Below are positions 6,326 to 29,277 of a stretch of DNA of 33,027 nucleotides, in pieces. The notes under the pieces are model-generated. The model had not been told where the DNA came from, made no database searches, and saw only the letters and a list, made by a program, of their open reading frames with translations. Location: the NCBI GenBank assembly GCA_017460955.1, contig JAFTZY010000055.1, forward strand, positions 1-33,027. The letters run 5' to 3'. Origin of the DNA: Oscillospiraceae bacterium. Its GTDB lineage: Bacteria; Bacillota; Clostridia; Oscillospirales; Ruminococcaceae. The position numbers and the translations under genes are program-made. Each line of letters begins with the position of its first letter. Within the stretch, counting starts at the first letter, position 1.

Positions 6326-6367
6326 TCCGGAATGAACGTTCCAAAAATCACGAAAAATCGCGAAAAA

Positions 6368-6405: not shown

Positions 6406-6456
6406 ACCTGTCTAATTTCAACAAATGTGATACTCTCTAATTGTGCAATATGACGG

Positions 6457-6485: not shown

Positions 6486-6507
6486 AAGAGATAGCACTAT
6501 CGGTAAG

Positions 6508-6523
6508 ATACAAGATGTTGTGT
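6508..6523. promoter_or_regulatory. NrdR-box-like site, proximal
   Basis: ATACAAGATGTTGTGT matches 13 of 16 positions of the NrdR consensus, with all strongly conserved positions kept. It sits between the nrdD promoter and the Shine-Dalgarno at 6541. The usual second box at about 31 bp spacing is not evident; the only clear partner is at 6310. Confidence 0.6.
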
Positions 6524-6555
6524 ATAAAAGTCAATCAAACAGGAGGAACGTGGCT

Positions 6556-8871: not shown

Positions 8872-8879
8872 AGACCCAC

Positions 8880-8907
8880 ATCACCCCACCCTGAGCGGTG
8901 GGGTGAT
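8880..8907 (+). other. Intercistronic hairpin between nrdD and nrdG
   Basis: Perfect 11-bp stem (8880-8890 with 8897-8907) and a 6-nt loop. No U-tract follows, so it is unlikely to be a full terminator. It may stabilise the nrdD message or lower read-through into nrdG, whose SD (AAGGAGG) follows at about 8920. Confidence 0.6.
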
Positions 8908-8933
8908 GCGCACCTACCGAAGGAGGGAGCATC

Positions 8934-9446: not shown

Positions 9447-9730
9447 ACTATACCTACATGCTGCGCTGTGCCGACGGCAGCCTCTACACGGGCTGGACGA
9501 ACGACCTGCGCCGCCGCCTGGCAGCGCACAATGCCGGACGCGGCGGCAAGTACACGCGCACACGGCGCCCCGTGACGCTGGTCTATGCCGAGGCGCATGC
9601 GGAAAAGCAGGCGGCCATGCGAAGGGAATACCACATCAAGCAGCTCACAAGACAGCAGAAGGAGGCCCTCCTCACAGCGGATTCCAACTGTCTGCCCGCA
9701 GAATACACACAAACAGCGGCACCGGAATGA
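9443..9730 (+). CDS. GIY-YIG domain protein (UPF0213 type)
   Basis: 95-aa protein consisting of little more than a GIY-YIG nuclease fold: N-terminal YTYMLRCADGSLYTGWTNDLRRRLAAHNAG gives the YxY...YTG pair and the conserved Arg, and a Lys-rich tail ends the domain. Proteins of the UhbY/YhbQ-like UPF0213 group have been linked to DNA handling or repair, but most are uncharacterised; no partner domain is present to give specificity. It overlaps the nrdG stop by 4 nt and so is probably translated with it. The stop codon lies in the loop of the terminator hairpin at 9711-9749. Confidence 0.85.
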   Translation: MNYTYMLRCADGSLYTGWTNDLRRRLAAHNAGRGGKYTRTRRPVTLVYAEAHAEKQAAMRREYHIKQLTRQQKEALLTADSNCLPAEYTQTAAPE

Positions 9731-9749
9731 GCTTCCGGTGCCGCTGTTT
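9711..9749. terminator. Bidirectional terminator of the nrdDG unit
   Basis: Perfect 17-bp stem (9711-9727 with 9733-9749) and a 5-nt loop, TGAGC, which contains the stop codon of the GIY-YIG gene (9728-9730). The arms end in AAA/TTT, giving a short T-run in both directions. It also serves the converging regulator gene ending at 9791. Confidence 0.85.
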
Positions 9750-9790
9750 TTAGGATCCCATATCCGCCGTGCTTTTGCAAGTGACGGATC

Positions 9791-12071: not shown

Positions 12072-12100
12072 TTGTGAACAAATCTGAAATATGTTACAAT
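12072..12100 (+). promoter_or_regulatory. Promoter of the PL11 lyase gene
   Basis: TTGTGA at 12072-12077, 17-nt spacer, TACAAT at 12095-12100. The non-ideal -35 with adjacent repeats fits a promoter needing an activator. The ATG is at 12139 behind AAGGGGGG. Confidence 0.6.
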
Positions 12101-12138
12101 GGATGTATAAAGATAGACTACAAGGGGGGTCCATATTG

Positions 12139-14697
12139 ATGAAACACAAACATGTTCGCAGGGCAGCGGCCGCGCTGCTCTCACTGGGGCTTTGTCTCCA
12201 GGGACTGCCGGCAGCTTCGCCGGTCCGCGCAGCACAGGACACGCTGTACTACGGCGATCTGGACGGGGACAGCGTCCTCACCGTCCGGGATCTTGCACTG
12301 ATGAAGCAGGGACTGCGCACGCCGTCCGTCCTCGATGCGCTGCACCAGGCGCTCTTTGACCTCAATGTCAGCGGCGGGATGGACACAGGGGACATCCTGC
12401 TCTTGCAGCAGTACCTCGTGCGGGAGATCGACCACTTCCCGTCGGGTGCGGTCTATGAGCCGGCGCCCGGACCGGAGGTCCTCTACAACGGCCAGAAAAC
12501 GCTCACGAGCGGCCGCTTTGTGGAAAAGCTTGACCGCGGCACCTATGCGGTCAATGCCGGCGGCTCCGTCTTTGTCAGCTGGCGCCTTCTGGCAAATGAT
12601 GAGCCGGACATCGGCTTTAATGTGTACCGCACGACCGGCGGCCAGACCGTGCAGCTCAATGCCGAGCCCCTGACCGGCGGGACGAATTTCACGGACACCA
12701 CCGCCGATCTCTCCAAGGACAATACCTACTATGTCACGACCGTCTATAACGGTGTCGAGACACCCACGGATGGTGATTTCACGCTGAAAGCGGGGGCATC
12801 CATCTTCACCAAGGGCAATGCAGGCGCAGCGCAGATCATCCCGATCAAGGAGGGCGGCACGATCCATTTTGTCTGGGTCGGCGATTTCAACCAGGACGGC
12901 AAGTATGATTTCCTTGTGGACCGCTGCACGGACGATCACCAGAAGCTCGAGGCCTATCTCAATGACGGCACCTATCTCTGGACGCTCGACCTTGGTGTCA
13001 ACAGCGAAGAGAAGAACAACATCACCCCCGGCGCGTCCACGATCGATGTGGGTATGTGGGACGGTGCGACTGTGTATGACATCGACATGGACGGCTCCGC
13101 TGAGGTCCTCGTGCGCATCGCGGACGGCGTGACCTTCGGGGACGGCAGGAAATTCAGCAATAATTCCGGCGGCAACGGACAGGCGATCGCGGTGCTTGAT
13201 GGCATGACGGGCGCACTCGAGGCCTCTGTCAACCTGCCGCAGGATTATATGAGCATCGGCCCGATGGCATGTATGATGGAGGTCGGCTACCTTGACGGCG
13301 TCAATCCCGCACTGGTCTGCTGGATCAAGAACCGCAATGCCGACAAGAGCTTCAACAGTATGATGGTCACCTACGGCTATGCCGGCGGGACTGAATTCAA
13401 GCAGCTCTGGAAATACGATGCCAAGGATATGGGCGGTGCCGAGGCGCATCAGTTCCGTGTGGAGGATGTGGACTACGACGGCAAGGATGAAGTCCTCCAC
13501 ATGGGCTATGTGCTCAACGGAGACGGCACGCTGCGCTATCAGGTCAAGGACGTAGTCCACGGCGACCGCTGGCATGTCACCGCCTTCTCCAATGCGCAGA
13601 ACGGCAAGGAAATGTGGGGCTACGGTGTGCAGCAGCGCAACCCGAATACCCTTCTCGAATACATCTACAACGCCTCCACTGGCGAGCTGCTTTGGACGAA
13701 TTACGGCGGCGACGGCTCCGTGGACATCGGCCGCGGAGACATCGGTGACGTGGACCCGACGCACGAGGGCTATGAGGTCTGGTCGTTCCAGGGCATGTAC
13801 GACATGCACGGTAACAAGATCTCGGATACCAACGCCTACCCCTCCTTAAAGCTCTACTGGGACGGCGACCTCCTCTCGGAATCCTACAACGACTCCAAGA
13901 TCGAGAAGTGGCACTATGACACGGCCTCCGTGGAGCGTGTGGCCACCACCTGGAAGATCACGGACTGCGCCTCGAGTGACCGCGGTGCGCCGATGTTCTA
14001 CGGCGACATCCTCGGTGACTGGCGCGAGGAGATCATCTGCACGGGCTATGATTATGCAAGTCTTGTCATCCTCTCCACGACCATCCCGACGGACTACCGC
14101 CTCAACACTCTCTCGCAGGATCCGGCGTACCGGAACGACATGACGAGCAAGGGCTATGTGCAGTCGAACATGCTCAGCTACTACCTCGGTGACGGGATGG
14201 ACGATCCCGGTCAGCCGGATGTGCGCTACATCGGCGAGGTCGCACTCGATGAGAACACGACCTATGCCATCCGCAATGTGAACAGCAGCCGCGTGATGGA
14301 TGTGGCCCAGTCGAGCCGTGCGGACGGTACGAACGTGCAGCAGTACGGCACAGTCCCCGGCAAGTCCAACAACACCTGGACGGTAAAGTCCGCAGGCGAC
14401 GGGTACTACTACATCATCTCGAAGCTCTCGACCGGTGAGAACTGCTATCTCACTGTTGCAGACGGCGCCAATACCAACGGCGCGAACGTGGAGATCTCGA
14501 CCTTCCGCGGGGATGATTCCCAGAAGTTCCGGCTGAAGGCCAACCCCGGCGGCTCGGTGATGCTCATGACCAAGTGCTCGAACGAGACAAAGTGCGTCGA
14601 GATCGTCAATGCCGAGACCGGTGCGGGCGCCAATGTCCAGCAATGGGTCCCCACGGGCAGCACCTGCCAGTGGTGGAAATTTGAAACGGTAGGATAA
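12139..14697 (+). CDS. Secreted PL11 rhamnogalacturonan lyase with N-terminal dockerin
   Basis: 852 aa, modular. A signal peptide (1 to about 32, ending SPVRA-AQ) is followed at about 35-98 by a type I dockerin with loops GDLDGDSVLTVRD and FDLNVSGGMDTGD, unusually placed at the N-terminus. About 118-695 match polysaccharide lyase family 11 (LDRGTYAVNAGGSVFVSWRL; GFNVYR; DFNQDGKYDFLVDR; HQFRVEDVDYDGKDE; repeated DxDxDG-type Ca loops of an eight-bladed propeller). About 705-850 form a ricin/CBM13-like lectin domain (TYAIRNVNSSRVMDVAQ). PL11 enzymes cut the alternating rhamnose-galacturonate backbone of rhamnogalacturonan-I by beta-elimination; endo or exo action cannot be told here. It is probably controlled by the divergent LacI/AraC regulator. 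With the GH53 galactanase, it would degrade RG-I backbone and side chains. Confidence 0.93.
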   Translation: MKHKHVRRAAAALLSLGLCLQGLPAASPVRAAQDTLYYGDLDGDSVLTVRDLALMKQGLRTPSVLDALHQALFDLNVSGGMDTGDILLLQQYLVREIDHFPSGAVYEPAPGPEVLYNGQKTLTSGRFVEKLDRGTYAVNAGGSVFVSWRLLANDEPDIGFNVYRTTGGQTVQLNAEPLTGGTNFTDTTADLSKDNTYYVTTVYNGVETPTDGDFTLKAGASIFTKGNAGAAQIIPIKEGGTIHFVWVGDFNQDGKYDFLVDRCTDDHQKLEAYLNDGTYLWTLDLGVNSEEKNNITPGASTIDVGMWDGATVYDIDMDGSAEVLVRIADGVTFGDGRKFSNNSGGNGQAIAVLDGMTGALEASVNLPQDYMSIGPMACMMEVGYLDGVNPALVCWIKNRNADKSFNSMMVTYGYAGGTEFKQLWKYDAKDMGGAEAHQFRVEDVDYDGKDEVLHMGYVLNGDGTLRYQVKDVVHGDRWHVTAFSNAQNGKEMWGYGVQQRNPNTLLEYIYNASTGELLWTNYGGDGSVDIGRGDIGDVDPTHEGYEVWSFQGMYDMHGNKISDTNAYPSLKLYWDGDLLSESYNDSKIEKWHYDTASVERVATTWKITDCASSDRGAPMFYGDILGDWREEIICTGYDYASLVILSTTIPTDYRLNTLSQDPAYRNDMTSKGYVQSNMLSYYLGDGMDDPGQPDVRYIGEVALDENTTYAIRNVNSSRVMDVAQSSRADGTNVQQYGTVPGKSNNTWTVKSAGDGYYYIISKLSTGENCYLTVADGANTNGANVEISTFRGDDSQKFRLKANPGGSVMLMTKCSNETKCVEIVNAETGAGANVQQWVPTGSTCQWWKFETVG

Positions 14698-14718
14698 GTC
14701 CCCGCCATTGACAAACAA

Positions 14719-14762
14719 AAACCGCAAGTCCCCGATGATGGGGGCTTGCGGTTTGTTTTTTG
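14719..14762. terminator. Bidirectional terminator, PL11 gene and ten-gene operon
   Basis: Stem of about 15 bp (14719-14733 with 14740-14754, one G-T pair), loop GATGAT, then a plus-strand T-run to 14762. On the minus strand the stem is followed by a T-rich stretch, so it also ends the converging operon. Confidence 0.85.
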
Positions 14763-14771: not shown

Positions 14772-15713
14772 TCATCCGGGACTGTGTGCAGCATCCGCCT
14801 TGCACCGCTTCCGATAGCGCAGTACGGTCAGCACACACAGGAGCGCGAACAGGCACACGGAGACGATGGTGACGGGGAATTCCATGACGAGCGCCATGTT
14901 CCACAGGAAGAAGAATATCCCGCACAGGAGCTTGAAGCTGTCCGTCATTGTCACAAGGGCTGTTTTCTGTGCCTTCCCGGCCCTGACGGACAGGATCTCG
15001 AGCAAGGTGAGGAGCGTAATGTCCACAGCATGGGGCACAAGCAGCAGCCGCTTGTCAAGGAAGGACCCGAAATTGGCAAACCACGCAAGGCCTGCATAAT
15101 CCGGGTCCAGCGCATGTTCTGTCGGGATGCGTTCCCAGACGACACACAGCAACAGCAGCGCGATCCCTGTGAACAGCCATGCCGCAAGGCGGCAGACCCG
15201 GTGCCGGGTACCCGAGGGTGCGAGGGTCTCCTTTTTTACCCTGTGCCGCATGCAGGTGATGCTCTGCACGGTCACGCCGATGAAGGCGGCGCCGAGCATG
15301 AGCCAGACCAGGCCCCCCATTACATTGGGATCGAGCGGCTTTTGAAGGGATACCGAGCGTGACCAGTTCGAGAAAAACAGGCTGAAGAGCAGTGACAGGG
15401 CATCGAGCGTGAGAGTGAGCTGCGCTTTGAAGCGGCGCTCGCCCTCCTGCGTAATGGAAAGCCCTGCCTTCATCCTGCCGATGAAACGGCACGCTGCGGC
15501 AAGTCCGCCGATGAGGAGCCCGCCCACGATATGCGGGTAGAAGCCGTAGGCCTTGCCGGCGATCACATCAAACGCTCCGTCCGGCCCGAAGTGCATGCCG
15601 ATCTCCGCGGGCAGCACATGCCAGCGCGTGAGGTAGAACACAAGGCTCCCCCCGAGGAGCAGGATGCTCAGTCCCGTGAGGAGGCGGTGCAGGAGGATGA
15701 CAGGTCGTTTCAT
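14772..15713 (-). CDS. DUF1648-type membrane protein
   Basis: 313 aa. The N-terminal hydrophobic helix followed by LPAEIGMHFGPDGAFDVIAGK resembles the DUF1648 motif (a helix, then an IPxHxxxxGxxD stretch) found in SdpI-like and other membrane proteins. About six more hydrophobic segments follow (for example 58-76, 98-118, 127-150, 183-204, 247-275, 278-300). Function is unknown. AAAGGAG precedes the ATG, and the gap to the upstream GNAT-like gene is only 23 nt, so it is the last gene of the radical SAM operon. It might shield, transport or regulate whatever that operon makes, but a passenger role cannot be excluded. No enzymatic motif is seen. Confidence 0.7.
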   Translation of the reverse strand: MKRPVILLHRLLTGLSILLLGGSLVFYLTRWHVLPAEIGMHFGPDGAFDVIAGKAYGFYPHIVGGLLIGGLAAACRFIGRMKAGLSITQEGERRFKAQLTLTLDALSLLFSLFFSNWSRSVSLQKPLDPNVMGGLVWLMLGAAFIGVTVQSITCMRHRVKKETLAPSGTRHRVCRLAAWLFTGIALLLLCVVWERIPTEHALDPDYAGLAWFANFGSFLDKRLLLVPHAVDITLLTLLEILSVRAGKAQKTALVTMTDSFKLLCGIFFFLWNMALVMEFPVTIVSVCLFALLCVLTVLRYRKRCKADAAHSPG

Positions 15714-15736
15714 AACGGACTCCTTTCCGTGAGAGC

Positions 15737-16768
15737 TTACAGCAGTGCCGTTTCAAGATGGAGCGGCGCTGTCAGGACCGGAGCATCCCCGTCCCAGACC
15801 ACCTCATACAGACGGCTGCCGTAGTGTACGGCCTTGAGTGCGGCGGCTGCATCGTGCAGCGGATGGGCATCCGGACACCCCCAGAGCAGGAGCGCATGCC
15901 CCGTTTCCTTCGCGACCGAGCGCAGAAATTGCCGGCACAGCACAGGATCATGGTCCTCCACATAAAGGTAGGAGATCACCCCATGATCGAGCGTTGCTCC
16001 CGGTTTCGGGAAGGCCGGGTACCCGAGCCATGCAGTCGGCAGATGCGAGAGCATCCGGTAGATACCGCCGTAGCCGGACATGCGGTACTGCTTTGTCGCA
16101 CGCTGATCCCCTGCAAAGCAAAACGCCCGGATACGCCCGCCCTCGCGGCAGCTGTAGAAATGCCCTTTGCCGAAGCCCCCGTAGTCCGGCACGGCGGGCG
16201 TGAGGGTAAAGCCGCGGTAATAGTCATGCAGCAAGGCGAAGGCGTCCGCATCATCCACCGCCAGGTCCAGGCAGCGCTTTGCATCCCGGAAGCCGTAGGT
16301 CGTGACATGTCCGAGGAAGCGGTATTCCGGCATGCTCCGGTGCTTTTTTTCGAGCATGGCAATGACGGACCGGTTGTCGTCAAGGATGGTCGTGTAGAAG
16401 GCATCACAGTCGCGCAGATGCTCATGCAGAAAGGCGTAGGCGCGGGCGATGAAGAAGATGCGCTTCTGGTAATCGGGATGGATCTTGAGCCCCGTGAGGT
16501 AGGCGCAGCGCTTTGGCACCCCGCCCACAAAGAGCGTCTGGACGACTGCTCCGCCGACGGCCGCCGTGCGGTGTGCCTCGTTGTCGATAATGACCATCAT
16601 GCGCCCCTCGTCGCCGTCGGCGGCAAAGGAGGCAAGGGGGGATTCCCCGCGCAGGAACTGGACCGAGATCCCTCCCGGGAAATGCTGCGCGGCAAAGACC
16701 TCCCGGATGCCGGGATCGTCGCCGGGAACGGCCATGCGCAGGGTGTAGCGGTCATTTTGGAAGTTCAT
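15737..16768 (-). CDS. GNAT-like acyltransferase, two-domain (GNAT1)
   Basis: 343 aa, about twice a single GNAT domain. The N-terminal half (1 to about 160) shows the fold: RYTLRMAVPGDDPGIREVF, MMVIIDNEAHRTAAVGGAVVQ, then LTGLKIHPDYQKR at the acetyl-CoA-binding position, where the usual QxxGxG/A is poorly kept, and TTILDDNRSVIAMLEK. The C-terminal half (about 175-343) may be a second, degenerate GNAT-like domain. GNATs move an acyl group from CoA (or another carrier) to an amine; the substrate is unknown. The ATG at 16768 has GGAGAG upstream and lies inside the end of RS1 (17-nt overlap), so it is translated with the radical SAM genes. The longer open frame (to 16819) is wholly within RS1 and not used here. 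Confidence 0.7.
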   Translation of the reverse strand: MNFQNDRYTLRMAVPGDDPGIREVFAAQHFPGGISVQFLRGESPLASFAADGDEGRMMVIIDNEAHRTAAVGGAVVQTLFVGGVPKRCAYLTGLKIHPDYQKRIFFIARAYAFLHEHLRDCDAFYTTILDDNRSVIAMLEKKHRSMPEYRFLGHVTTYGFRDAKRCLDLAVDDADAFALLHDYYRGFTLTPAVPDYGGFGKGHFYSCREGGRIRAFCFAGDQRATKQYRMSGYGGIYRMLSHLPTAWLGYPAFPKPGATLDHGVISYLYVEDHDPVLCRQFLRSVAKETGHALLLWGCPDAHPLHDAAAALKAVHYGSRLYEVVWDGDAPVLTAPLHLETALL

Positions 16769-18083
16769 CGAGATTCTCTCCGATCGGGACATGCATTTTC
16801 TGATCGACCTCCTCGCCAAGACGCAGGTTCATCGCCCAGAAGAGCCCCCACATCAGGGGGCTGGTGCGGCCAAGGGAGGCAAAGCCCCGGCTGAGGACGG
16901 TTTTCGCACTGGAGAATTCTTTGCGTGCATCGCGGCACAGCTGACTGAGCTTTGATGCAGAGATGCGCCTGGGATGGAAGGACAGCTCCCCGTAGTTGTA
17001 GCCGTCCTCAAGCCACCATTTGTCGTAGATAAGCCGGTTCTCGGCCTTCAGACGGTCATAGAGGGGCGTGTTCGGGAAGGGGAGGAGGTGATTGAAGGCG
17101 GCGGTGTAGAAATTGTGCTTCTTGGCAAACGCCAGCGCATCGGCGACCGTCCCCTCGTCGTCGTTGTCGTAGCCGAACACGAAGGTCGCATAAATGCCAA
17201 GGCCCGCATCATGCACCCGCTGCACGAGCTCGTCGCGCTCACCAAGGGCGTAGTTGAAGGACTTGTTCATCTGCTGAAGATTTTCCTTGTTCAGGCTCTC
17301 AAAGCCGATGAGGATGACCTCACAGCCGCTTTTTTTCATCGCCTTGAGAAGCGCCTCGTCCTTGGCCATCGAGAGCGTGCCCTGTCCGGCCCACTTGATG
17401 TGCAGGGGCGTGATCTCTTCAAAGAGGCGCATGGCATTTTTTCGGTCGGCCACGAGGTTGTCATCGACCAGGAAGAAGTATTTGTTCGGCGAATCCGTGA
17501 TGTCCTCGAGGATCAGCCGGTGCTCCCGGCAGTAGTAGCGGCTGCAGTAGAATTTCGAGATCGAGCAGAACTCGCACCGGTGGATGCAGCCGCGCCCCGT
17601 CTCCACAAGGGAGACGGGGAGGTATTTCTTGTCCGTGAAGAGCGATTTATCCGGGCGGATGTCGTATTCCGCCGTGCCGCCCTGATAGAAGCGCCGGAGC
17701 TGGCCATGCTGTACATCGTGCAGCATGGTATGCCAGACGGCCTCGGCATTGCCGATGATGACGCTGTCGCAGTATTCGATGGCCTCCTCCGGGCAGAGCG
17801 TGGCATGGTAGCCGCCCATGACCACGGGGATGCCCCGCTCCCGGAAGCGTGCTGCGATGCGGTAGCTGCGCTTGGCCGTATAGGTCTCGACCGTGATGCA
17901 CACAAGGTCGGTATCCGTGTCGTACCCGATGAGCTCTAAGCGGTCGTCAAAGAGCTCGGTCTCGATGTCCTCCGGCGTGAGCGCCTTGAGCTGCGCGATG
18001 GTCAGCGGCTCCATTTTCCAGGTGCCGATATATTTCTGTCCCGGCTTCTTGCCGATGGCGGGCAGGATGAACGTGATCTTCAT
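16752..18083 (-). CDS. B12-binding-type radical SAM protein RS1
   Basis: 443 aa. Residues 1 to about 130 form a Rossmann-like domain of the cobalamin-binding class seen in BchE/HpnP-type radical SAM enzymes, with VVMGGYHATLCPEE (88-101) and CDSVIIGNAE. The radical SAM cluster motif is Cys166, Cys170, Cys173 (RGCIHRCEFC). Later come FFLVDDNLVADRK, VILIGFESLNKENLQQ and, near the end, YDKWWLEDGY, all shared with RS3 and RS4. Such enzymes cleave SAM to a 5'-deoxyadenosyl radical and often methylate or rearrange unactivated carbon. The substrate is unknown. The start forms ATGA with the stop of the upstream membrane-protein gene; its end overlaps GNAT1 by 17 nt. B12 binding is inferred; DxHxxG is absent, as in many of this class. 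Confidence 0.85.
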   Translation of the reverse strand: MKITFILPAIGKKPGQKYIGTWKMEPLTIAQLKALTPEDIETELFDDRLELIGYDTDTDLVCITVETYTAKRSYRIAARFRERGIPVVMGGYHATLCPEEAIEYCDSVIIGNAEAVWHTMLHDVQHGQLRRFYQGGTAEYDIRPDKSLFTDKKYLPVSLVETGRGCIHRCEFCSISKFYCSRYYCREHRLILEDITDSPNKYFFLVDDNLVADRKNAMRLFEEITPLHIKWAGQGTLSMAKDEALLKAMKKSGCEVILIGFESLNKENLQQMNKSFNYALGERDELVQRVHDAGLGIYATFVFGYDNDDEGTVADALAFAKKHNFYTAAFNHLLPFPNTPLYDRLKAENRLIYDKWWLEDGYNYGELSFHPRRISASKLSQLCRDARKEFSSAKTVLSRGFASLGRTSPLMWGLFWAMNLRLGEEVDQKMHVPIGENLDELPK

Positions 18084-19105
18084 GCACGCACCCCCTGCTG
18101 TGCGGCCTTGTCCAGAAAGCCTTGCAGCTCGAGCAGGAGCTGCCGCTCGAGCTCACGCTCCTCACCCGGCAGGGAGAAGCGGTCCACGCAGGCAAGTCCC
18201 TCATGGACCAGCTGCTGTGCGCGGGCATTGTTGCGCTCGATGCCAAAGGCGTAGTACGCGAGCACGCGCTTGGCATTGGCATCGGGATCGGACGTGATGG
18301 CATGACGCACCTTGTCGAGGAAGAAGGTCGCAGCCCTCTGATCGAGCTCGTACCGGGAATAGTAGAAGATCAGCCAGTAATAGCCGAGTGTCTCCTGCGA
18401 GAGGAATTCCCGCCCCCTGTAGTAATCGGCCATTTCCCGGATGGGGGCACGCATCCCGGCAATGTCCCCATGCTCGAGCAGATACATCAGGTAGATGTTG
18501 TAATATTGCATGCGCTCAAGCTTGCTCGTTTTTTGGTAGGGCAGTGACTCGACGGGCAGGAGCTGCATCTCCGAGACGCGCTCCCCCTGCCGGATGCGCT
18601 TTAAGAGCGTGCTCACATACCCGCCCAGGCGCTTCATCAGCACCGCATAGATGTAGATGAACGTCCCGAGCGAGGACAGGCTGTGGATGGCAAAGCCGAC
18701 GGACAGCCCGGCCAGGAAGGCATCGGGGTAGTTCCCGCGGCGCCCGATGAGCGCGGACACCGAGCCCCATGTGAGCACAAGGAGCAGCGCACTGCAAAGC
18801 AGCAGTACCATGCACCGCAAAAGCAGCATCGTTTTCTCCTTGCGCTCGAGATGCTCCGGCACGCCGCCGCGCAGGTCGGCAGTGACCAGATCGGTGATGA
18901 GCTGTGAATATTTGAAGGGACGGCGTTCCCAGTGCCCGTCCGTATCGCATTCAAAGCGCAGGCCGAAAAAGCTGACCATTTTGACACGATAGGAGAAGAG
19001 CGGGGCGAGGGTGAGGTCCAGAAGGAGCTGCAAAAGCTCCTTGAGCCAGATGGCCACAAGAAAAGCACCCGTCACAAACAAAAGCGACATCATATAGAAA
19101 TCCAT
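18080..19105 (-). CDS. Membrane protein, degenerate M50/S2P-like
   Basis: 341 aa. Hydrophobic segments lie at about 5-38, 93-113 and 130-155; a helical, TPR-like soluble part follows (about 195-341). Residues 20-68 (WLKELLQ... to ...SYRVKMVSFFGLRFECDTDGHWERRPF) resemble, by eye, the start of M50/site-2 proteases, where HExxH is followed by a GYR-x-SF-x-G stretch. The zinc motif here reads K22-E-L-L-Q26, so it would have no protease activity. It could be a pseudoenzyme scaffold that holds the pathway enzymes at the membrane, or an unrelated protein. It has a strong SD (AGGAGG) 15 nt after RS2 and an ATGA junction with RS1. The fold assignment is a guess; the membrane location is solid. Confidence 0.6.
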   Translation of the reverse strand: MDFYMMSLLFVTGAFLVAIWLKELLQLLLDLTLAPLFSYRVKMVSFFGLRFECDTDGHWERRPFKYSQLITDLVTADLRGGVPEHLERKEKTMLLLRCMVLLLCSALLLVLTWGSVSALIGRRGNYPDAFLAGLSVGFAIHSLSSLGTFIYIYAVLMKRLGGYVSTLLKRIRQGERVSEMQLLPVESLPYQKTSKLERMQYYNIYLMYLLEHGDIAGMRAPIREMADYYRGREFLSQETLGYYWLIFYYSRYELDQRAATFFLDKVRHAITSDPDANAKRVLAYYAFGIERNNARAQQLVHEGLACVDRFSLPGEERELERQLLLELQGFLDKAAQQGVRA

Positions 19106-19120
19106 AACTGTAACCTCCTG

Positions 19121-20455
19121 TCAGAGCACCGGAATATCCGAATTGTCACACATGACCTCCCTTGTGAAGCGGTGCCATTTGTCGGCATAGCCCTTGTAGC
19201 CGAGGTTGACCGGGAAGGACAGCCACGGGCTGTGCCGGAAGGGGGCCAGGCGTTTGAGGATACTCGATGTCGAGTAGGTATCCCGCCATGCCCGGTCGGT
19301 GCCCTCGGTGAGCTCCTCGGGGGTCATACGTTTTGGCTGAAAGACCACATGCTGCACATCGTACATCGCCCAGTTGCGCTCGATGATGCGCCCCTCCTGC
19401 TCAAGCTGGGCATAGTAGGCCGTGCGCGGGAAGGGGGTGAGAATGGAGTAGCGGGGCAGGTCGATCTTGGCCTTGATGACCATTTCGACCGTCCGGTCAA
19501 AGACGCTCGTGTCCTCCTCGTCCCCGCCGAAGGCAAAGCAGCCCTGCACAAGGATCCCGTTGTCATGCAGGCGTTTCATCAGGTCCACATAGCTGTCCAC
19601 GCGGTTGACGCCCTTGTGGATGTATTTCTGCGATTCCTGCGTGATGGATTCAAAGCCGATGAGCAGTCCCCGGCAGCCGCTTTGCCGGAACACCTTCATG
19701 ATCTCATCGTCAATGCCGACCGAGGAGGTGACAAGTCCCAGCCAGATGACCTTGAGCGGGACCATGGCCGCAAAGAGCTCGAGCGCGTATTTGCGGTCGG
19801 TGATGAGGTTGACATCGGGAAAGAGGACGTGCTTGGAGTGCAGTGCCTCGATCTCGGCCACGACCTCCTTGACAGGCCGCTTGTAGACGTGCCGTCCGAA
19901 GGCAGCCGGATACGCACAGAAGGTGCAGGTGTGGGAGCAGCCCCGGATGGCCTCGACGGTATTGATCGTGATATAGCGCTTTTTGTTGAGGAGCTCCCGG
20001 CGGGGCGTGGGCCGCCCGGCAATGGAGAAATCACAGTTCTGGTGGTAGAACTGCCGGTACTCGCCCCTCACATAATCATGCAGGAACTCCGGGAAGGTCT
20101 GCTCGGAAAAGCCGGTAAACACGACATCCGCATGCTGTGCGGCCTCCTCGGGAAGCATGGAGGGATGCACACCGCCTAAAAAGACGGTTTTTCCCTTTTT
20201 ACGGAAATAATCGGCGAAGGCATAGCAGCGCGGTGCCGTGCCGGTGATGCAGGTGATGCCAATGAGCTCGGCGTCGATGTCGAGCGGGATCTTGCCGGCG
20301 GTCTCGTCATAGATGACCACCTCATGCTCGATGTCCTGTGGAATGAGGGCCGCAAGCGTGGTGAGCGTGAGCGGCGCATAATGCAGTGATTTCCCGAAGC
20401 TCCCGGAAAACCGGTGCATGGCACCGGCGGGTGCAAGGAGCGCGATCTTCAGCAT
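19121..20455 (-). CDS. B12-binding-type radical SAM protein RS2
   Basis: 444 aa. The N-terminal Rossmann-like domain (1 to about 135) has TVFLGGVHPSMLPEE (90-104). The radical SAM motif is Cys173, Cys177, Cys180 (RGCSHTCTFC). Further on, LIGFESITQESQKYIHKG is the usual strand-5 region, and NWAMYDVQHVVFQPKRM near the C-terminus pairs it with RS5 rather than with RS1/RS3/RS4, which have KWWL there. Expected chemistry is SAM-dependent radical methylation or C-C bond change on an unknown substrate; cobalamin use is inferred from the domain. It overlaps the end of the GH3-like gene by 7 nt. The ATG at 20455 lacks a well-spaced SD (GGAAGGG is about 13 nt away), so it probably relies on coupling to the upstream gene. 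Confidence 0.85.
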   Translation of the reverse strand: MLKIALLAPAGAMHRFSGSFGKSLHYAPLTLTTLAALIPQDIEHEVVIYDETAGKIPLDIDAELIGITCITGTAPRCYAFADYFRKKGKTVFLGGVHPSMLPEEAAQHADVVFTGFSEQTFPEFLHDYVRGEYRQFYHQNCDFSIAGRPTPRRELLNKKRYITINTVEAIRGCSHTCTFCAYPAAFGRHVYKRPVKEVVAEIEALHSKHVLFPDVNLITDRKYALELFAAMVPLKVIWLGLVTSSVGIDDEIMKVFRQSGCRGLLIGFESITQESQKYIHKGVNRVDSYVDLMKRLHDNGILVQGCFAFGGDEEDTSVFDRTVEMVIKAKIDLPRYSILTPFPRTAYYAQLEQEGRIIERNWAMYDVQHVVFQPKRMTPEELTEGTDRAWRDTYSTSSILKRLAPFRHSPWLSFPVNLGYKGYADKWHRFTREVMCDNSDIPVL

Positions 20456-21969
20456 GGGGAAAACACATCCCTTCCTTGAAATTCCTGCTGCCAGCCTTCA
20501 TCGGCACACAGATGCGCACTCTTGATGTCGCCAAGGCGCATCCCCTCGCGTACCCGGCGGCGCAGGTAGACCTGCCGGGGACTTTCCGTCACACGGATGA
20601 CAGCCGCCTGCCGGAGCTGTCCGAGCCTGCGGCAGTAGGCATAGTGATAGCTTTCACACAGCGCCCGGTCAAGGGCATCCGCTGTAACGGGCGTCTGCGT
20701 GAACAGGAGGTACTGCTTGCCCTTGGGCGCAAGGAGCGCATCGGGGCATCCGAGCGAGATAAGGACGCTTTGCACAAACTCCTCCGTGAGCTTTTCCCCG
20801 CACAGGTCACTCGTGATGCCGCTGCGTCCGAGAAAGCGCAGGCGCGGCGGTGCATCCGGGAATACCTCCAGGATCTCGACCATGTCCCCGATGGCGTAGC
20901 GGTACAGACCGCCCCCCGTGGTGACGATGATCTCGTACCGCCCCGGCGTGAGGGCATCGGCCGTGCAGATGCGGCCCGCCTTGGCATCACGAAACTCAAA
21001 GAAATGTGAGTGCAGGCTCAGGCGGCTGCCCGTTTCGCCGATGAGCGGCAGGGAGACAAAGCACTCCGTCGCAAGCAGTCCCTTTGGCTGGAACAGGACC
21101 CCGGGGAAGTACCCCTGCAGCGCCTTGGCATCCGGTGCCGCACTCCCGTCCGCCCAGGCGCTGATGACGCGCAGTGCCGGAAAGACCCGGTCAAAGCGGT
21201 TCTCCGCTGCCGCACGGCGCACAGAGAGCGCCCTTGGCGCAGGGAGGTCCCGTGTCAGCGCCCTTGCATGCGTGCGGATGAAATCGCACAGGATGGTAAG
21301 ATAGGTCGGATTCCATACGGAGATGAGCGTGAGGGCGGGGCAGGTGAGGAGCTGCTTTGCCGTCTGCCAGTAAAACGCCTCCATGGAGCCTGCGAATTTC
21401 ACATTCCCGTCCACGGCAAAGAGCCTTCGCATGATGTGCTGCTCGAGCCTGCCGAAATAGGCCGTATCCTCCTCAAAGCCGATGGGAATGCCGCATGCTG
21501 TGTACTGCCGCCCCTGTGTGACGGGTGTGACCGACCAGTAGCTCTGCCCGGCATCGGCACCGGGTACACGGGTGTACAGATCATAGATCCACGGCCGGAT
21601 ACCGCACTGGAATTCCCGGTGCAGGGAGGCGGTGTAGGGGATGAGCTTGCGCCCGCCCGACGAACCGCTCGTGGGCTCCAAGAGCGTGACGGGCTCTCCC
21701 GTGAGAACGTGCGGTTCCCCGGCAGCGATCCGGTCAATGTAGGGGGCAAGGTCCTCATAGCGCCGCACGGGGACTGCCCGGGCAAAGTCCTCATAGCCGT
21801 GCAGTTTTGCAAAGCCGTGTTCACGCCCGAATGCGGTATCCGCATTGCGGGCAAGGAGCGCTTTCAGATAGGAACGCTGCACCCGCCCCACATCCTGCCG
21901 CCTGGAAAAGCGCTGCCAGGCGGGGGCATACAGGCGGCAGCACAGGCGGTTCAGAGTGCGTGCCTTCAT
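20449..21969 (-). CDS. GH3-family acyl-adenylate ligase
   Basis: 506 aa, full length for the GH3 family. This is the firefly-luciferase-type adenylating fold known from plant auxin and jasmonate amido synthetases, which activate an acid as acyl-AMP and join it to an amino acid. Visible motifs are the phosphate-binding TSGSSGGRK (100-108), LLATEC at the A5-like position (298-303), and LYRYAIGD (355-362), the GH3 nucleotide-binding motif. In bacteria substrates are mostly unknown. The ATG at 21969 forms ATGA with the stop of GNAT2 and has AGAGGG upstream; the open frame to 22029 is inside GNAT2 and is excluded. In this operon it is the only obvious activating enzyme, so it likely supplies an activated acid to one of the GNAT-like proteins or forms an amide itself. 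Confidence 0.85.
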   Translation of the reverse strand: MKARTLNRLCCRLYAPAWQRFSRRQDVGRVQRSYLKALLARNADTAFGREHGFAKLHGYEDFARAVPVRRYEDLAPYIDRIAAGEPHVLTGEPVTLLEPTSGSSGGRKLIPYTASLHREFQCGIRPWIYDLYTRVPGADAGQSYWSVTPVTQGRQYTACGIPIGFEEDTAYFGRLEQHIMRRLFAVDGNVKFAGSMEAFYWQTAKQLLTCPALTLISVWNPTYLTILCDFIRTHARALTRDLPAPRALSVRRAAAENRFDRVFPALRVISAWADGSAAPDAKALQGYFPGVLFQPKGLLATECFVSLPLIGETGSRLSLHSHFFEFRDAKAGRICTADALTPGRYEIIVTTGGGLYRYAIGDMVEILEVFPDAPPRLRFLGRSGITSDLCGEKLTEEFVQSVLISLGCPDALLAPKGKQYLLFTQTPVTADALDRALCESYHYAYCRRLGQLRQAAVIRVTESPRQVYLRRRVREGMRLGDIKSAHLCADEGWQQEFQGRDVFSPC

Positions 21970-22661
21970 CGGAACAGCACCCTCTGTGCGGATGCCTTCA
22001 TGCAGGCACGGTCGATCCGGGCAAGGCATACAAGGTCGTTGCCGCGGACATGGCCGGGATTGCGCTTTGCAAAATAGGCGACATCCGGGTTGCGCAGCCT
22101 TGCCGGCGTGAGATCCGCCACCCCGGGACGCAGCCGGTCCTTGCTGTGGAGGTATTCGACCACGCCGGTCGCCGGGTTGTAGTCCCCGGGGTAGAGAAGA
22201 CCCGCATAGGCATCCATGATCCGCTGCATCCGCTCCGGTACGGGAGCGCGGCGCGAGGGGTAGAATTCCTGCCAGAACAGCGGCAGGATGCGGTAGGTCT
22301 TGTAGCCCTTGCAGATGAGAAACCAGTAAAATTCCTCAAACTGCCGGGCGTAGGGGAACCAGAACTGCGCCCACACGCGGAAGAGCTCGGGCTCCCCCCA
22401 CAGGTCCTGCCGGATGATGGTATCCCCGGAAAAGACGCCCCGGACCTCCTGCCCGTCCACGGGAACGCTCAGGAGCTTTTGCGTGGTAAAGCCCACGACC
22501 GCCCCCGCATCATCCTCCAGGAGCAGCACATAGTCCTTGTCCATAAGGTCACTGCGGAAAACCGCCTCGTCCGTATTGTCATAATGCTGCGCCATGAGCG
22601 CATACATCTCGCCGGTCTGTGCATCCGTGCAGGAATGCACCGGTACGATCCTTCCCTTCAT
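21966..22661 (-). CDS. GNAT-like protein (GNAT2)
   Basis: 231 aa. GNAT-like pattern: an N-terminal helix pair (MYALMAQHYDNTDEAVFRSDL), then strands in DYVLLLEDDAGAVVGFTTQKLLSV and VRGVFSGDTIIRQDLWG, then the unusual YWFLICKGYKTYRILPLFWQEFYP. The acetyl-CoA-binding Q/RxxGxG loop is not clear, so it may use an acyl-AMP or acyl-protein donor, or not be an enzyme. The last 60 residues (AYFAKRNPGHVRGNDLVCLARID) look like a conserved tail rather than linker. It forms ATGA junctions at both ends, with RS3 before and GH3 after, so all three are co-translated. From memory, similar proteins sit next to GH3-type ligases in other bacteria; I could not check this. Confidence 0.65.
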   Translation of the reverse strand: MKGRIVPVHSCTDAQTGEMYALMAQHYDNTDEAVFRSDLMDKDYVLLLEDDAGAVVGFTTQKLLSVPVDGQEVRGVFSGDTIIRQDLWGEPELFRVWAQFWFPYARQFEEFYWFLICKGYKTYRILPLFWQEFYPSRRAPVPERMQRIMDAYAGLLYPGDYNPATGVVEYLHSKDRLRPGVADLTPARLRNPDVAYFAKRNPGHVRGNDLVCLARIDRACMKASAQRVLFR

Positions 22662-24013
22662 GCCGATCCCTCCTGTCCGTCCTTCAGACCAAAATGCAGT
22701 CCCTGCTTCTTGAAGACCTCCTTGCGGAAGAGCGGATTGTAGAGCAGATACGTCATCAGCCGGTAGGGGGTGCGCAGATTGGTCCGGGGCTCCAAGGCCC
22801 TTGTGAAGATGGAGCCGGGGCTGTTAAAGCGGCGGCGGCAGTCAAAGGCGATCTCGGTGAGCTCGTCCGGGGTCATGTGCCGGGGGACGATGCTGCAATA
22901 GTTGAAGCGGTAATCCTCGTGCAGCCACCATTTTCCGTCATAGAGCAGGCGGTCTTCCCGCTTGAGCTTCTCATACAGGGGCGTGTTCGGGTAGGGCATG
23001 AGGATGTTGAAGGCAGCAAAGGTGAATTTGCTCTCAATGGCAAAATCGCACGTTGCCCGGATGGATTCCACCGTGTCCCCGTCGTGCCCCACTGTGAAGG
23101 CTGCCCAGGTCTGGAGCCCCCACTGCCGGAGCTGCTCGATCTCACGGGCGTACATCTCCCCGGAGCCGCTGCGGTTCTGGAATTTGTGCATGTCCTCGAT
23201 GTTCTGCGGGGAGATGGACTCAAAGCCGATGACCAGTCCCAGGCAGCCGCTCTTCACCATGAGCTCCATGAGCTCCGGGTCGCGCAGCATGTCCATGCTT
23301 CCCTGGCTCACCCAGCGGATCTTCAGCGGGATGAGCGCCCGGAACAGCTCCTTGGCCCGTTCGTGGTTGCAAACGATGTTGTCATCGACAAAGAAGAGGA
23401 GCCGCCGCTTCTGTGAGCGGATCTCGCGGATGACATCCTCCACCGGACGGCAGTAGTGATGCGCCTTGAAATAGACGGAGGAGGCACAGAAGCTGCATTT
23501 GTGGCTGCATCCGCGGGAGAATTGCAGGAGGGTGATGGGCAGATACCCCTTGCCCTCAAAAATATCCCGCCTTGCGATGACATTCCCCTGCGGACAGACG
23601 GGCTGTACGGCATCATAGCGCTTTTGCAGATGCTCCGCACGGCAGTCCTCGATCATCTGCGCCCACACGGGCTCGGCATCGCCGACAATGAGACTGTCGC
23701 AGTGCTGTGCGACCTCCTCCGGGATGAGCATGGCATGCATCCCGCCCATGACGGTGGGGATGCCGCGCTGCTTGAATTCGGCGCTGATCTCGTAGGCACG
23801 CCTTGCCGTGAACGTCTCGACCGTGATGGCCACCAGGTCCGTTTTCTCGTCATAGGGAATGGCCTCGCAGCGGTCATCGTAGAGCACGACCTCCACATCC
23901 GGGGGCGTGAGGGCCGCTAAGATCCCCAGGGGCAGCGGCTCCATACGCGCCTCATCGACGTAGAGGCTGTGCTCCCGGCGGCCGATATTCGGTTTAATCA
24001 ACGTCAGCTTCAT
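22658..24013 (-). CDS. B12-binding-type radical SAM protein RS3
   Basis: 451 aa. The N-terminal domain (1 to about 140) has TVMGGMHAMLIPEE (87-100) and CDSLIVGDAE. The cluster motif is Cys169, Cys173, Cys176 (RGCSHKCSFC). FFVDDNIVCNHERA, LVIGFESISPQNIEDM and YDGKWWLHEDYRF are the shared features of the RS1/RS3/RS4 subgroup. It should use SAM and probably cobalamin to modify an unactivated carbon; the substrate is unknown. It overlaps RS4 by 20 nt at its start, the largest overlap in the operon, and shares ATGA with GNAT2 at its end. No SPASM or extra Cys-rich C-terminal domain is visible. Confidence 0.86.
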   Translation of the reverse strand: MKLTLIKPNIGRREHSLYVDEARMEPLPLGILAALTPPDVEVVLYDDRCEAIPYDEKTDLVAITVETFTARRAYEISAEFKQRGIPTVMGGMHAMLIPEEVAQHCDSLIVGDAEPVWAQMIEDCRAEHLQKRYDAVQPVCPQGNVIARRDIFEGKGYLPITLLQFSRGCSHKCSFCASSVYFKAHHYCRPVEDVIREIRSQKRRLLFFVDDNIVCNHERAKELFRALIPLKIRWVSQGSMDMLRDPELMELMVKSGCLGLVIGFESISPQNIEDMHKFQNRSGSGEMYAREIEQLRQWGLQTWAAFTVGHDGDTVESIRATCDFAIESKFTFAAFNILMPYPNTPLYEKLKREDRLLYDGKWWLHEDYRFNYCSIVPRHMTPDELTEIAFDCRRRFNSPGSIFTRALEPRTNLRTPYRLMTYLLYNPLFRKEVFKKQGLHFGLKDGQEGSA

Positions 24014-25310
24014 TGAGGATCCCTCCGAGGAGCTGTCCCTGCTTGTGCCGGATCTCCCGCCGGGAAATGAAATTTGCCAGCAGGAACACGAACAGATTCA
24101 GCGGTTTGAGATGATAGGGATTGCCGAGCATCCGCTTGAAGATGCAGGAAGGCGAGTAGAACCGGGTGCGGATAGAGAGGCAGCCGTCCCGGAGCGCCTC
24201 CGGGGACATGCCCTTGGGGACAAAGGCCGTCTCCCCGTAGCGGTACTTGTCCGAGAGCCACCATTTCTTGTACAGGAGCCGGTGCTCGGCCTCCATGCGC
24301 GCATAGGTCTGTGTGCCGGGCATGGGGATGAGGGGATTGAAATTGGTCACAGAGATGTTGTTTTTTACGGCAAAGCGGTAGGTCCTTTCAAAGACCTCCG
24401 GACCGTCCCCGTCGCAGCCAAGGACGAAGGTGCCGTAGATGAGGATGCCGTGCCGGTAGATGCGCCGGATGAGCGCCTCGTAATCCCGCATGGCGTTTGC
24501 CGCCTTGTGGATCTCCCGCAGGCTGTCTTGACTCAGGCTCTCAAAGCCCATGAGCACGAGGAAGCACCCGGCCTTTTTCATGGCCGCAAGGAGCTCGTCA
24601 TCGGCCGCGGCATCCATGCTGATCTGGCAGGCCCATTTCTTTTTGAGCGGCGCGATGGCGCGGAAGAGCTCGAGTGCCGATTCCCGGTCATAGAAAATGT
24701 TGTCGTCCACGAAAAAGAGGATCTTCTCTGGCGCACGGGCAAGCTCCCCGGCGATCATGTCCGCGCTCTTGCGGCGCACGCATTTGTACATGGTCTTGAT
24801 CGAGCAGAATTCGCAGTTGAATTTGCAGCCCCGTGAGATCTGGTACACTCCGATCCCGTAATAGCGGTGCCGGTAGATCTCCGGCACGGGCGGCACAGGG
24901 GTGAGGGGCAGGCATTCCCCGGAGCGGTACTTCGGTCTGGGTGCGCCCCGGCGGCAGTCCTCCAGGAAGTCCCCCCAGGTATCCTCGGCATCGCCGATGA
25001 GGACACTGTCAGCATAGAGGAGCATCTCGTCGGGCATGACGCTCGCATGGAATCCCCCCATGACGATCACCGTGCCGGGACGGCGGTATTTCTTGGAGAG
25101 GATGTAGGCACGCTTGGCCGTGTAGGTCTCCACCGAAAAGGCGATGATGTCGGCATCGAGCGTCTCGGGGAGCGTTTCGGCCCGCTCATCGAGGAAGAGA
25201 ATGTCGTCCCTGGGCGGCGTCAGGCTTTTGATGATGGAAAAGAGGATCGGCTTCATCGCATCGGAGGCGATGTGCTCGAACATGTTCAGCCGGATGAATA
25301 CGATCTTCAT
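23994..25310 (-). CDS. B12-binding-type radical SAM protein RS4
   Basis: 438 aa. The N-terminal Rossmann-like domain has VIVMGGFHASVMPDE (81-95) and ADSVLIGDAED. The cluster motif is Cys162, Cys166, Cys169 (RGCKFNCEFC). FFVDDNIFYDRES, LVLMGFESLSQDSL and YKKWWLSDKYRY place it with RS1 and RS3. The C-terminal 60 residues are hydrophobic and basic (LNLFVFLLANFISRREIRHK), hinting at membrane contact and perhaps a lipid-like substrate. The start forms ATGA with the RS5 stop. Chemistry is as for the family; the substrate is unknown. Confidence 0.86.
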   Translation of the reverse strand: MKIVFIRLNMFEHIASDAMKPILFSIIKSLTPPRDDILFLDERAETLPETLDADIIAFSVETYTAKRAYILSKKYRRPGTVIVMGGFHASVMPDEMLLYADSVLIGDAEDTWGDFLEDCRRGAPRPKYRSGECLPLTPVPPVPEIYRHRYYGIGVYQISRGCKFNCEFCSIKTMYKCVRRKSADMIAGELARAPEKILFFVDDNIFYDRESALELFRAIAPLKKKWACQISMDAAADDELLAAMKKAGCFLVLMGFESLSQDSLREIHKAANAMRDYEALIRRIYRHGILIYGTFVLGCDGDGPEVFERTYRFAVKNNISVTNFNPLIPMPGTQTYARMEAEHRLLYKKWWLSDKYRYGETAFVPKGMSPEALRDGCLSIRTRFYSPSCIFKRMLGNPYHLKPLNLFVFLLANFISRREIRHKQGQLLGGILNEADVD

Positions 25311-26611
25311 GATGCATTCCGTTTCTGGTCGATCCCGAGGAATTTAAAGCCGATGTTGGCGCCGAGCAGGATAAAGACGTAGGGATGGAAGCGCCAGGGG
25401 GAGGTGAAGGTCCGCCGCAGCACGCGCTTCCAGGAATAGGCTTCCCGCCATACCTGCCGGTAGATGGCATCGAGACGTCCGGCGCTGAGGTTGACGGGCG
25501 AAAAGACAGCCGTGTGCTGGTTGTAGCGGCTCCACTCGTGGGTGAGGATGCGCCCGTGCTTTTCGTAATCCTCATAGAGCTTGGTGCCGGGATAGGGCGT
25601 GAGCACGGCAAAACGGCACAGATCGAGCCCCAGGCGGTCCACGCGCTCCGGGAGCGCGAGCAGCTCCTCCTCCGTGTCGCTGTCAAAGCCGAGCACAAAG
25701 CAGCCGTTGACGGCCATGCCATGGCTGTGGATGTTGGCGATGACCGTTTTGTACTTGTCCGTCTCCTGAAAGCGCTTGCCGACGCTGCGCAGGGAGGAGG
25801 TGTTGAGGGATTCAAGCCCGATGAGCACGCCCCGGCAGCCGCTGCGGTAGGCGGCCTCCATGAGCTCGTGGTCGTACCCGAAATCCGCCGTGGCATTCGA
25901 GGCCCACAGGATGTGCAGGGGCTCGAGCGCCTTCATGAGCGAGAGGGCATACTCGCGCTTAGCAAAGAAATTCGGGTCATAGAAGATGACCATTTTTGTA
26001 TGGAGTGACCGGACCTCCTCCACGACCGATTCAACGGGCCTCGGGTCACTGCGCCACATCATGCTCATGGAGCAGTATTTGCAGCGGTTGTTGCAGCCCC
26101 GGTCGGCGATGACGGCCGGGATCCTGAGTTTCCTGTGCTTTGTCACGACATCCCGGGCCGGAATGGGATACTCGGCAGCACAGACGATGGGGTTGTGGTA
26201 ACGCGCCTTGGGAGCGCCTGCCGCAAAATCGTGCAGGAAGGCCGGAATGGAGATCTCTGCCGGACCGATGATGACCGTATCGCAGTGCTGCAGCGCCTCC
26301 TCCGGCATGGCCGTGGCGTGATAGCCGCCGCAGACCACATAGCTCCCGCGCTCCCGGAAGGCATCCGCATGCCGGTAGGCGGACAGGGCGGAGGAGGTCT
26401 CGAAGGAGATCATCACCACATCATAGTGCGTCCGGTCGTACTGCACGCGCTGGGAGTTCTCATCCACCACGTCGATCTGTCCGAACATCCCCTCCGGCAC
26501 GAGGGAATAGAGCACGGCCAGTGTCAGCGAGGGGTAGGAGAGCAGACTGGAAAACCGACCGCGGTATGCGACCTCCGTTTCATTCCAGGCATGGATCAGC
26601 AAGAGCTTCAT
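25307..26611 (-). CDS. B12-binding-type radical SAM protein RS5, first operon gene
   Basis: 434 aa. The N-terminal domain has VVCGGYHATAMPEE (92-105) and CDTVIIGPAE. The cluster motif is Cys173, Cys177, Cys180 (RGCNNRCKYC). FYDPNFFAKREYAL and LIGLESLNTSSLR follow; EWSRYNQHTAVFSPVNL near the end is the counterpart of RS2, not the KWWL form. The ATG at 26611 is chosen for the AAGGAGG 5 nt upstream and a promoter just beyond (26657-26685); the open frame runs on to 26887 but passes through that promoter and the neighbouring terminator. The C-terminus ends with a hydrophobic stretch (FHPYVFILLGANIGFKFLG). It is the promoter-proximal gene of the ten-gene operon. Substrate unknown. Confidence 0.86.
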   Translation of the reverse strand: MKLLLIHAWNETEVAYRGRFSSLLSYPSLTLAVLYSLVPEGMFGQIDVVDENSQRVQYDRTHYDVVMISFETSSALSAYRHADAFRERGSYVVCGGYHATAMPEEALQHCDTVIIGPAEISIPAFLHDFAAGAPKARYHNPIVCAAEYPIPARDVVTKHRKLRIPAVIADRGCNNRCKYCSMSMMWRSDPRPVESVVEEVRSLHTKMVIFYDPNFFAKREYALSLMKALEPLHILWASNATADFGYDHELMEAAYRSGCRGVLIGLESLNTSSLRSVGKRFQETDKYKTVIANIHSHGMAVNGCFVLGFDSDTEEELLALPERVDRLGLDLCRFAVLTPYPGTKLYEDYEKHGRILTHEWSRYNQHTAVFSPVNLSAGRLDAIYRQVWREAYSWKRVLRRTFTSPWRFHPYVFILLGANIGFKFLGIDQKRNAS

Positions 26612-26656: not shown

Positions 26657-26685
26657 ATTATACCATAGGATCCATGCAAATGCAA
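26657..26685 (-). promoter_or_regulatory. Promoter of the ten-gene radical SAM operon
   Basis: Minus strand: -35 TTGCAT, 17-nt spacer, perfect -10 TATAAT. Predicted start near 26650, a leader of about 40 nt, then the RS5 Shine-Dalgarno. The -35 lies only 3 nt past the T-tract of the terminator of the upstream lipoprotein gene. I see no riboswitch-sized leader, so B12-riboswitch control at this position is excluded. Confidence 0.75.
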
Positions 26686-26688: not shown

Positions 26689-26724
26689 AAAAAAAGAAGC
26701 CCCATGCCGGCAAAACCGGCATGG
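26689..26724 (-). terminator. Terminator of the lipoprotein gene
   Basis: A 9-bp stem (26702-26710 with 26716-26724), a 5-nt loop, and on the minus strand a run of seven T (26695-26689) a few bases after the stem. Confidence 0.75.
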
Positions 26725-26756
26725 AGTATCGAAAATGAAGAACTGTTTTGTTTATG

Positions 26757-29168: not shown

Positions 29169-29277
29169 GTGGATCACCGCTTTCTGTAGTGTCCCCACCC
29201 CGTATCTTTTTCTTTCTGATTGGTAGTATACCGGACAAATGTGGTAGTTTTGTGATAATCCCATAAAAGTAAGATAA

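Follow-up and report, generated by a model that had tools for sequence, protein, structure and literature searches.

An eight-gene block of radical SAM, GH3 and GNAT-fold proteins, conserved across bacterial phyla, and its possible role in making an N-acylated metabolite or lipid

What would a bacterium make with five radical S-adenosylmethionine (SAM) proteins, a GH3-type ligase and two acyltransferase-like proteins encoded side by side? This question is raised by ten minus-strand genes in the 33,027-nucleotide (nt) stretch analysed here (the window), which is the entire contig C29 (JAFTZY010000055.1) of an Oscillospiraceae bacterium with a genome of 2.48 Mb in 84 contigs. An earlier reading made from the DNA without database searches (the sequence-only reading) had proposed a ten-gene pathway in which an acid is activated and transferred and carbons are modified repeatedly. 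We find that the pathway unit is eight genes, RS1-RS2-RS3-GN1-GH3-RS4-RS5-GN2, which recur across phyla beyond chance, and we give about even odds (a probability of roughly 0.5) that they form a self-contained pathway whose product is an N-acylated metabolite or lipid. The general scheme of the earlier proposal gains from neighbourhood conservation and predicted folds; its ten-gene extent was not upheld, and its cobalamin dependence remains putative.

The ten open reading frames (ORFs) run from 26611 to 14772 as RS1, RS2, RS3, GN1, GH3, RS4, TM1, RS5, GN2 and TM2. Recomputed junctions between successive ORFs were -4, -20, -4, -4, -7, +15, -4, -17 and +23 nt, within the range of -20 to +23 first reported; these values assume ATG starts at 21969 (GH3) and 16768 (GN2), both among the listed candidate starts. 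An RS4 search of genome contigs found 60 loci, including Ruminococcus flavefaciens 007c (L044), Ruminococcaceae bacterium P7 (L078), many Clostridia metagenome-assembled genomes (MAGs), a Fusobacterium MAG (L093), two MAGs labelled Mucispirillum and one Tissierellia MAG. The exact eight-gene order was present in 31/60 loci, and in 23 of the 35 judged untruncated. Block genes were co-stranded in all 60, with a median junction of -4 nt (354 junctions; 323 of 50 nt or less, 9 of more than 200 nt). TM1 (341 amino acids (aa), 18080..19105) was found in 1/60 loci (L083) and TM2 (14772..15713, with weak similarity to DUF1648) in 0/60, so the unit comprises eight genes rather than ten. Both carry strongly hydrophobic segments, as the membrane proteins they had been called; we rejected a pathway role for either, TM1 being a lineage-specific, non-core insertion and TM2 probably lying outside the pathway. 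The untruncated loci that departed from it were these: RS1 was missing in seven, RS2 and RS3 were both missing in L046 and L053, RS5 was doubled in L072, L093 read GN1-GH3-RS4-RS1-RS5-GN2, and L076 had neither GN1 nor GH3. Among flanking ORFs of at least 100 aa, only three families recurred in at least four loci.

The occurrence of the block is patchy, since cluster genes lie beside GH3 in few loci of the host family and, within the order, the window GH3 protein matches only itself (394 genomes, E 1e-20). PF03321 was present in 32/297 genomes of the family and gave no match in the four other genomes of the genus that were listed; besides the window, cluster genes adjoined GH3 in 2/29 family loci (L011 and L012) within the flanking DNA examined. 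GN1 was detected in 5/398 genomes of the phylum, and in the other four, GH3 and RS genes adjoined it. Two of these four loci lie on contigs already among the 60, while L114, with the smallest set (GN1-GH3-RS4-RS5-GN2), and L111, with the same five genes rearranged, are new. Four pairs share sequence (L037/L080, L038/L065, L112/L086 and L113/L084), so these other scans partly repeat the 60 loci. The neighbourhood comparison that the sequence-only reading had proposed, run with RS4, GN1 and GH3, showed block order kept across phyla. Its concern that these genes might rarely be together was not borne out: they stay together where the block exists, and it is the block itself that is scattered.

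Relatives outside the Clostridia carry both the block and its parts. GN1 matches occurred in 11/98 Fusobacteriota genomes, one of them that of L093; of the eight regions examined, two had the exact eight-gene order, and a variant (L141-L145) read GN1-RS-GH3-RS4-RS-RS, its GH3 being extended by about 130 aa, in Fusobacteriota genomes of 2.2-2.9 Mb. In the Pseudomonadota, GN1, GH3 and GN2 were compared in three records. A Citrobacter portucalensis plasmid carries GN1-GH3-RS4-RS5-GN2-RS2-RS3, then a PAP2 phosphatase gene and a gene of no assigned family; on its opposite strand, a further RS gene and a gene for a fatty acid desaturase share a 4-nt overlap. No near match to this cluster was present in E. 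coli genomes. The Acinetobacter locus (L103 4596-11960) encodes HlyD, a major facilitator superfamily protein, GN1, GH3, an outer membrane efflux protein and a GN2-like protein, and the Burkholderia locus (L102) GN1, a GN2-like protein, an opposite-strand PF10118 protein, a fatty acid desaturase, GH3 and a Rieske oxygenase. The two GN2-like genes scored 69.3 and 41.6 bits, respectively, against the GN2 profile, and the retrieved stretches of both loci held no RS match. Homology links the desaturases of Citrobacter and Burkholderia (26%, 1e-22), and L102 has two more minus-strand stretches that weakly resemble the Citrobacter protein, at 5773-6627 and 15269-15493 (8.9e-5 and 6.2e-4). A block whose gene order holds between Ruminococcus and Fusobacteriota, and part of which sits on a Citrobacter plasmid, is probably under strong selection.

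GH3 (506 aa, 20449..21969) is a GH3-family adenylating amide ligase by its PF03321 match (4.4e-41, 141.5 bits), as had been supposed, and by nucleotide motifs of the acyl acid amido synthetases: among 53 orthologues of at least 35% identity, TSGS[SAT] was present in 48, YR[YF]x[IVLM]GD in 33 and GEKL[TS]E in 35. Amide formation by this enzyme is predicted on those grounds. The GH3 profile matched plant GH3 structures at 4.7e-24 (three rows), and OlsH was the sole NCBIfam match of those GH3 proteins having any. In a tree of 16/53 orthologues plus added rows, the cluster, Acinetobacter and Burkholderia GH3s formed one clade (support 100/99), outside which ten other GH3s of the family fell. Viral contigs searched with GH3 yielded no relative. 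A Streptomyces GH3 was set aside for its polyketide context and its position outside the cluster clade; its gene (L105 7887-13347) has genes for polyketide synthase and threonyl-tRNA synthetase nearby.

GN1 (231 aa, 21966..22661) and GN2 (343 aa, 15737..16768) had no Pfam match in the window, and their predicted models have GNAT folds, which refines the earlier call of two GNAT-like proteins to a single-GNAT protein and a double-GNAT protein resembling N-myristoyltransferase (NMT), respectively. GNAT Pfam matches occurred in 6/42 GN1 relatives (E up to 5) and 34/40 GN2 relatives (E up to 1); the NMT sequence family was absent from the matches of the 40 GN2 members at E 1. Orthologue rows were kept at 85% query coverage or more, which left GN2 with 56/57 loci (L069 dropped), and the alignments comprised 42/52 (A3) and 40/57 (A4) rows. 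FSGDTI and WFLxxKGxKTY were invariant over the 42 GN1 rows. Structural matches of GN1 included aminoglycoside acetyltransferases; a PDB sequence search gave three matches, none sensible. Distant Azospirillum relatives of GN1 (~25% identity), near a fatty acyl reductase-like gene, were not used. The GN2 model aligns end to end with NMT at ~10% identity and has the double-GNAT fold. A terminal Leu, aligned with the last residue of NMT, closes 54/54 complete GN2 relatives besides the window; the C-terminal carboxylate of GN2 is a putative catalytic base by analogy. In human NMT, turnover persisted when another carboxylate stood in for this group (PMC7048800).

The remaining proteins, RS1 (434 aa, 25307..26611), RS2 (438 aa, 23994..25310), RS3 (451 aa, 22658..24013), RS4 (444 aa, 19121..20455) and RS5 (443 aa, 16752..18083), belong to the radical SAM superfamily: all five bear CxxxCxxC and GGxH, as previously reported, and match PF04055; RS4 and RS5 count as core members. 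Among orthologues sharing 45% identity or more, CxxxCxxC was retained in 36/36 (RS1), 44/45 (RS2), 47/47 (RS3), 56/56 (RS4) and 57/57 (RS5) rows. Their assignment to the B12 type is putative. The B12-binding profile PF02310 (gathering score 32.1) was exceeded by RS1 (32.5), RS4 (32.3) and RS5 (33.2) and missed by RS2 (30.4) and RS3 (25.9), matches cover the later part of the profile only, and DxHxxG occurred in 2/241 RS orthologue rows. One cobalamin riboswitch is present in the host genome, and cobalamin use is possible. Many NCBIfam radical SAM models matched, the best including HpnJ, BchE, PhpK and ladderane-type models, none near its cut-off. A quick tree of 108 RS proteins (complete ORFs from 27 chosen loci) showed that the five descend from two old types, RS4/RS1 (support 99) and RS5/RS3/RS2 (support 100). 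RS5 and RS2 each formed a single group (94); grouping of RS1, RS3 and RS4 needs two or three changes, arising from a few long or misplaced rows. The smallest clusters have one RS of each type, which fits growth of the set from two. A sixth paralogue on contig C38 of the same genome (L036/L039), apart from the block and 32% to RS5, fell outside the cluster clades, as a long branch basal to the RS5/RS3/RS2 side. RS5 ends at the same column, with Lys, in an NLDELPK-like tail in 57/57 rows, and many RS4 proteins carry a DNSDIP tail; both kinds of tail may extend to the active site or a partner.

By analogy, the GN1-GH3-GN2 core points to acid activation followed by acyl transfer onto amines, and the desaturases adjoining the core in the Citrobacter and Burkholderia loci suggest a fatty acyl chain. 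In the pathway we propose, GH3 would adenylate a carboxylic acid (probably a fatty one) and join it to an amine, much as OlsH acylates ornithine. GN2 would act like NMT, taking an acyl group off a thioester and placing it on an amine with its own C-terminal carboxylate as the base, and GN1 would carry out an additional acyl transfer. The roles of GH3 and the GNATs follow what is known of their families; those of the RS enzymes are the least certain step. The latter may do oxygen-free work comparable to that of desaturases, attacking unactivated acyl-chain C-H bonds in turn (by methylation, desaturation or ring closure), with two to five RS genes perhaps gained or lost as the product varies. 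A bolder version, which we regard as rather doubtful, would make the RS pair and its duplicates an oxygen-free counterpart of the Burkholderia desaturase/oxygenase, desaturating, branching or cyclising the chain stepwise, with an NMT-like bacterial enzyme loading it on an amine, and yielding a new acyl amide class of rumen and gut Clostridia and Fusobacteriota.

Several observations weigh against an N-acylated product made in this way. NMT chains, very numerous in the PDB, fill the GN2 matches listed, so that other double-GNAT folds could not appear, and a fold common to GN2 and NMT does not equal a common function. The L114 GN2 has a different end, and GN2 is not alone in having a fixed end, since that of RS5 is also fixed in 57/57. 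The Acinetobacter GH3 had no NCBIfam match, hence none to OlsH, and the RS proteins lack long membrane segments. Among 76 sources (the 60 loci, Fusobacteriota regions, plasmid records and window), relatives of the desaturases occurred in 2, Citrobacter and Burkholderia; none turned up in the window, in the Acinetobacter stretch or in any of the 60 loci and eight Fusobacteriota regions. GN2 was missing from the retrieved DNA of 5/8 Fusobacteriota regions (the L142 and L143 stretches end near the block), and one of the eight has GN1 alone, in a genome with no GH3 match. L076 has RS genes and GN2, with neither GN1 nor GH3 found there or elsewhere in its genome, and this gap reflects either natural gene loss or faulty assembly. 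At 8643-11347 of that locus, RS3 and RS4 overlap directly where GN1 and GH3 would sit.

The Acinetobacter locus, where GN1, GH3 and a GN2-like gene accompany a three-part efflux pump, keeps a polar, exported product as a real rival, and we treat it as a tentative possibility. The product would then be a small polar natural product such as a modified amino acid or amino sugar, serving as an exported signal, antibiotic or metallophore, with GH3 joining an aryl or amino acid, the GNATs acetylating and the RS enzymes methylating or dehydrating. Small acids are the substrates of the matched plant GH3 enzymes, aminoglycoside acetyltransferases are among the GN1 matches, the RS4 profile is nearest to AprD4, an apramycin biosynthetic enzyme (6fd2, 3.3e-11), and the scarcity of desaturases (2/76) fits as well. 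The end-to-end match of GN2 with NMT, the two loci with desaturases and the fact that those GH3 proteins with any NCBIfam match have OlsH alone argue instead for the N-acylated product.

Some B12-type radical SAM enzymes modify ribosomally synthesized and post-translationally modified peptides (RiPPs). The RS enzymes might thus act on an unseen precursor whose N-terminus GN2 acylates, and peptide N-termini are indeed the targets of NMT in the accessible part of PMC4964394. We disfavour this as quite improbable for want of a precursor: none fits any gap in the window, where junctions span only -20 to +23 nt and the widest bears out the earlier remark that no precursor-sized gene is present, and the locus does not qualify as a RiPP cluster. 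The median junction of -4 nt (n = 354) leaves as little room elsewhere, the wider gap of five Fusobacteriota variants has no frame staying open and alike (judged by eye), and all NCBIfam RiPP models fell far under cut-off. A chance or hitch-hiking operon built on one paralogous expansion of generic function, to which the mutual homology of RS1-RS5, the C38 paralogue and L076 might lend themselves, is strongly disfavoured by RS orthologues that keep their order across phyla and by the position of the C38 paralogue outside the cluster clades.

If an N-acylated product is correct, the block would supply a bacterial enzyme working like N-myristoyltransferase, a series of two to five radical SAM paralogues in which natural gene losses would let individual steps be compared, and an amide not described before, made by gut and rumen bacteria.

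The single promoter of the sequence-only reading has a candidate, although the scan listed none ahead of RS1 (2 promoter-like sites in the region vs 3.4 expected). On the minus strand at 26657..26685 we read TTGCAT, 17 nt and TATAAT with a preceding TGG, which the scan rule omits because the first hexamer agrees at only 3/6 positions. The site sits within the 88 nt separating RS1 from a terminator-like hairpin (26700..26726, minus strand) that closes the upstream gene. A terminator-like inverted repeat with T-rich ends (14713..14760) lies below TM2, between the operon and the facing gene. Rfam gave 0 matches across the window at gathering scores. Elsewhere, the window encodes a Cthe_2159-type carbohydrate-binding protein (26757-29264) in which a FTPGELPTDENGE-type stretch is repeated close to the C-terminus. 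At 6457-9446, the gene for an anaerobic ribonucleotide reductase precedes that for a small radical SAM protein, which is probably the activase of the reductase; dockerin-bearing pectin enzymes are encoded nearby (3552-5498 and 12091-14697).

How does the block compare with known systems? No window protein reached an NCBIfam cut-off, Pfam matches were general ones, and no described pathway with this gene set appeared in open papers among the matches listed, in keeping with the earlier reading. The RS proteins share superfamily and domain order with HpnJ, BchE, ladderane-type proteins and PhpK (E down to 2.9e-28), yet score at least ~290 bits under the curated cut-offs. AprD4, a radical SAM diol dehydratase, is the nearest solved structure to the RS4 profile by sequence, but the best RS score was 62.6 bits against a cut-off of 500. 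The membrane-spanning lipid synthase Mss couples lipid tails in Clostridia and has the Tes architecture (PMC13274423, in part); the sole Tes match here was RS5 (E 0.0074), so the sequence gives no support to the RS proteins as such synthases, and the accessible part of that source describes Mss without a GH3 or GNAT partner. GN2 shares with NMT a predicted double-GNAT fold matched end to end, and differs in its ~10% identity and its place in a bacterial biosynthetic operon. The nearest characterised case to the GN1-GH3-GN2 core is OlsH, the bacterial GH3 enzyme that forms N-acyl ornithine in the OlsH/OlsI ornithine lipid pathway of planctomycetes; in the accessible part of that report (PMC12493201), the GH3 tree includes a Ruminococcus flavefaciens protein and the main text has 0 occurrences of 'radical SAM'. 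Both are GH3-family ligases (OlsH E 1.2e-14 for the window GH3 and 1.1e-19 for a Fusobacteriota orthologue) and OlsH forms an amide from a free acid, as is predicted here for the window GH3. The window GH3 scores 53.7 bits against the OlsH cut-off of 620 (NF052613) and falls outside that family, and in place of OlsI the ten window genes, which include no hydrolase family by Pfam, offer two GNATs and radical SAM enzymes. We therefore rate the block as real, conserved and cross-phylum, and as a variant of the already known GH3-based acyl amide synthesis.

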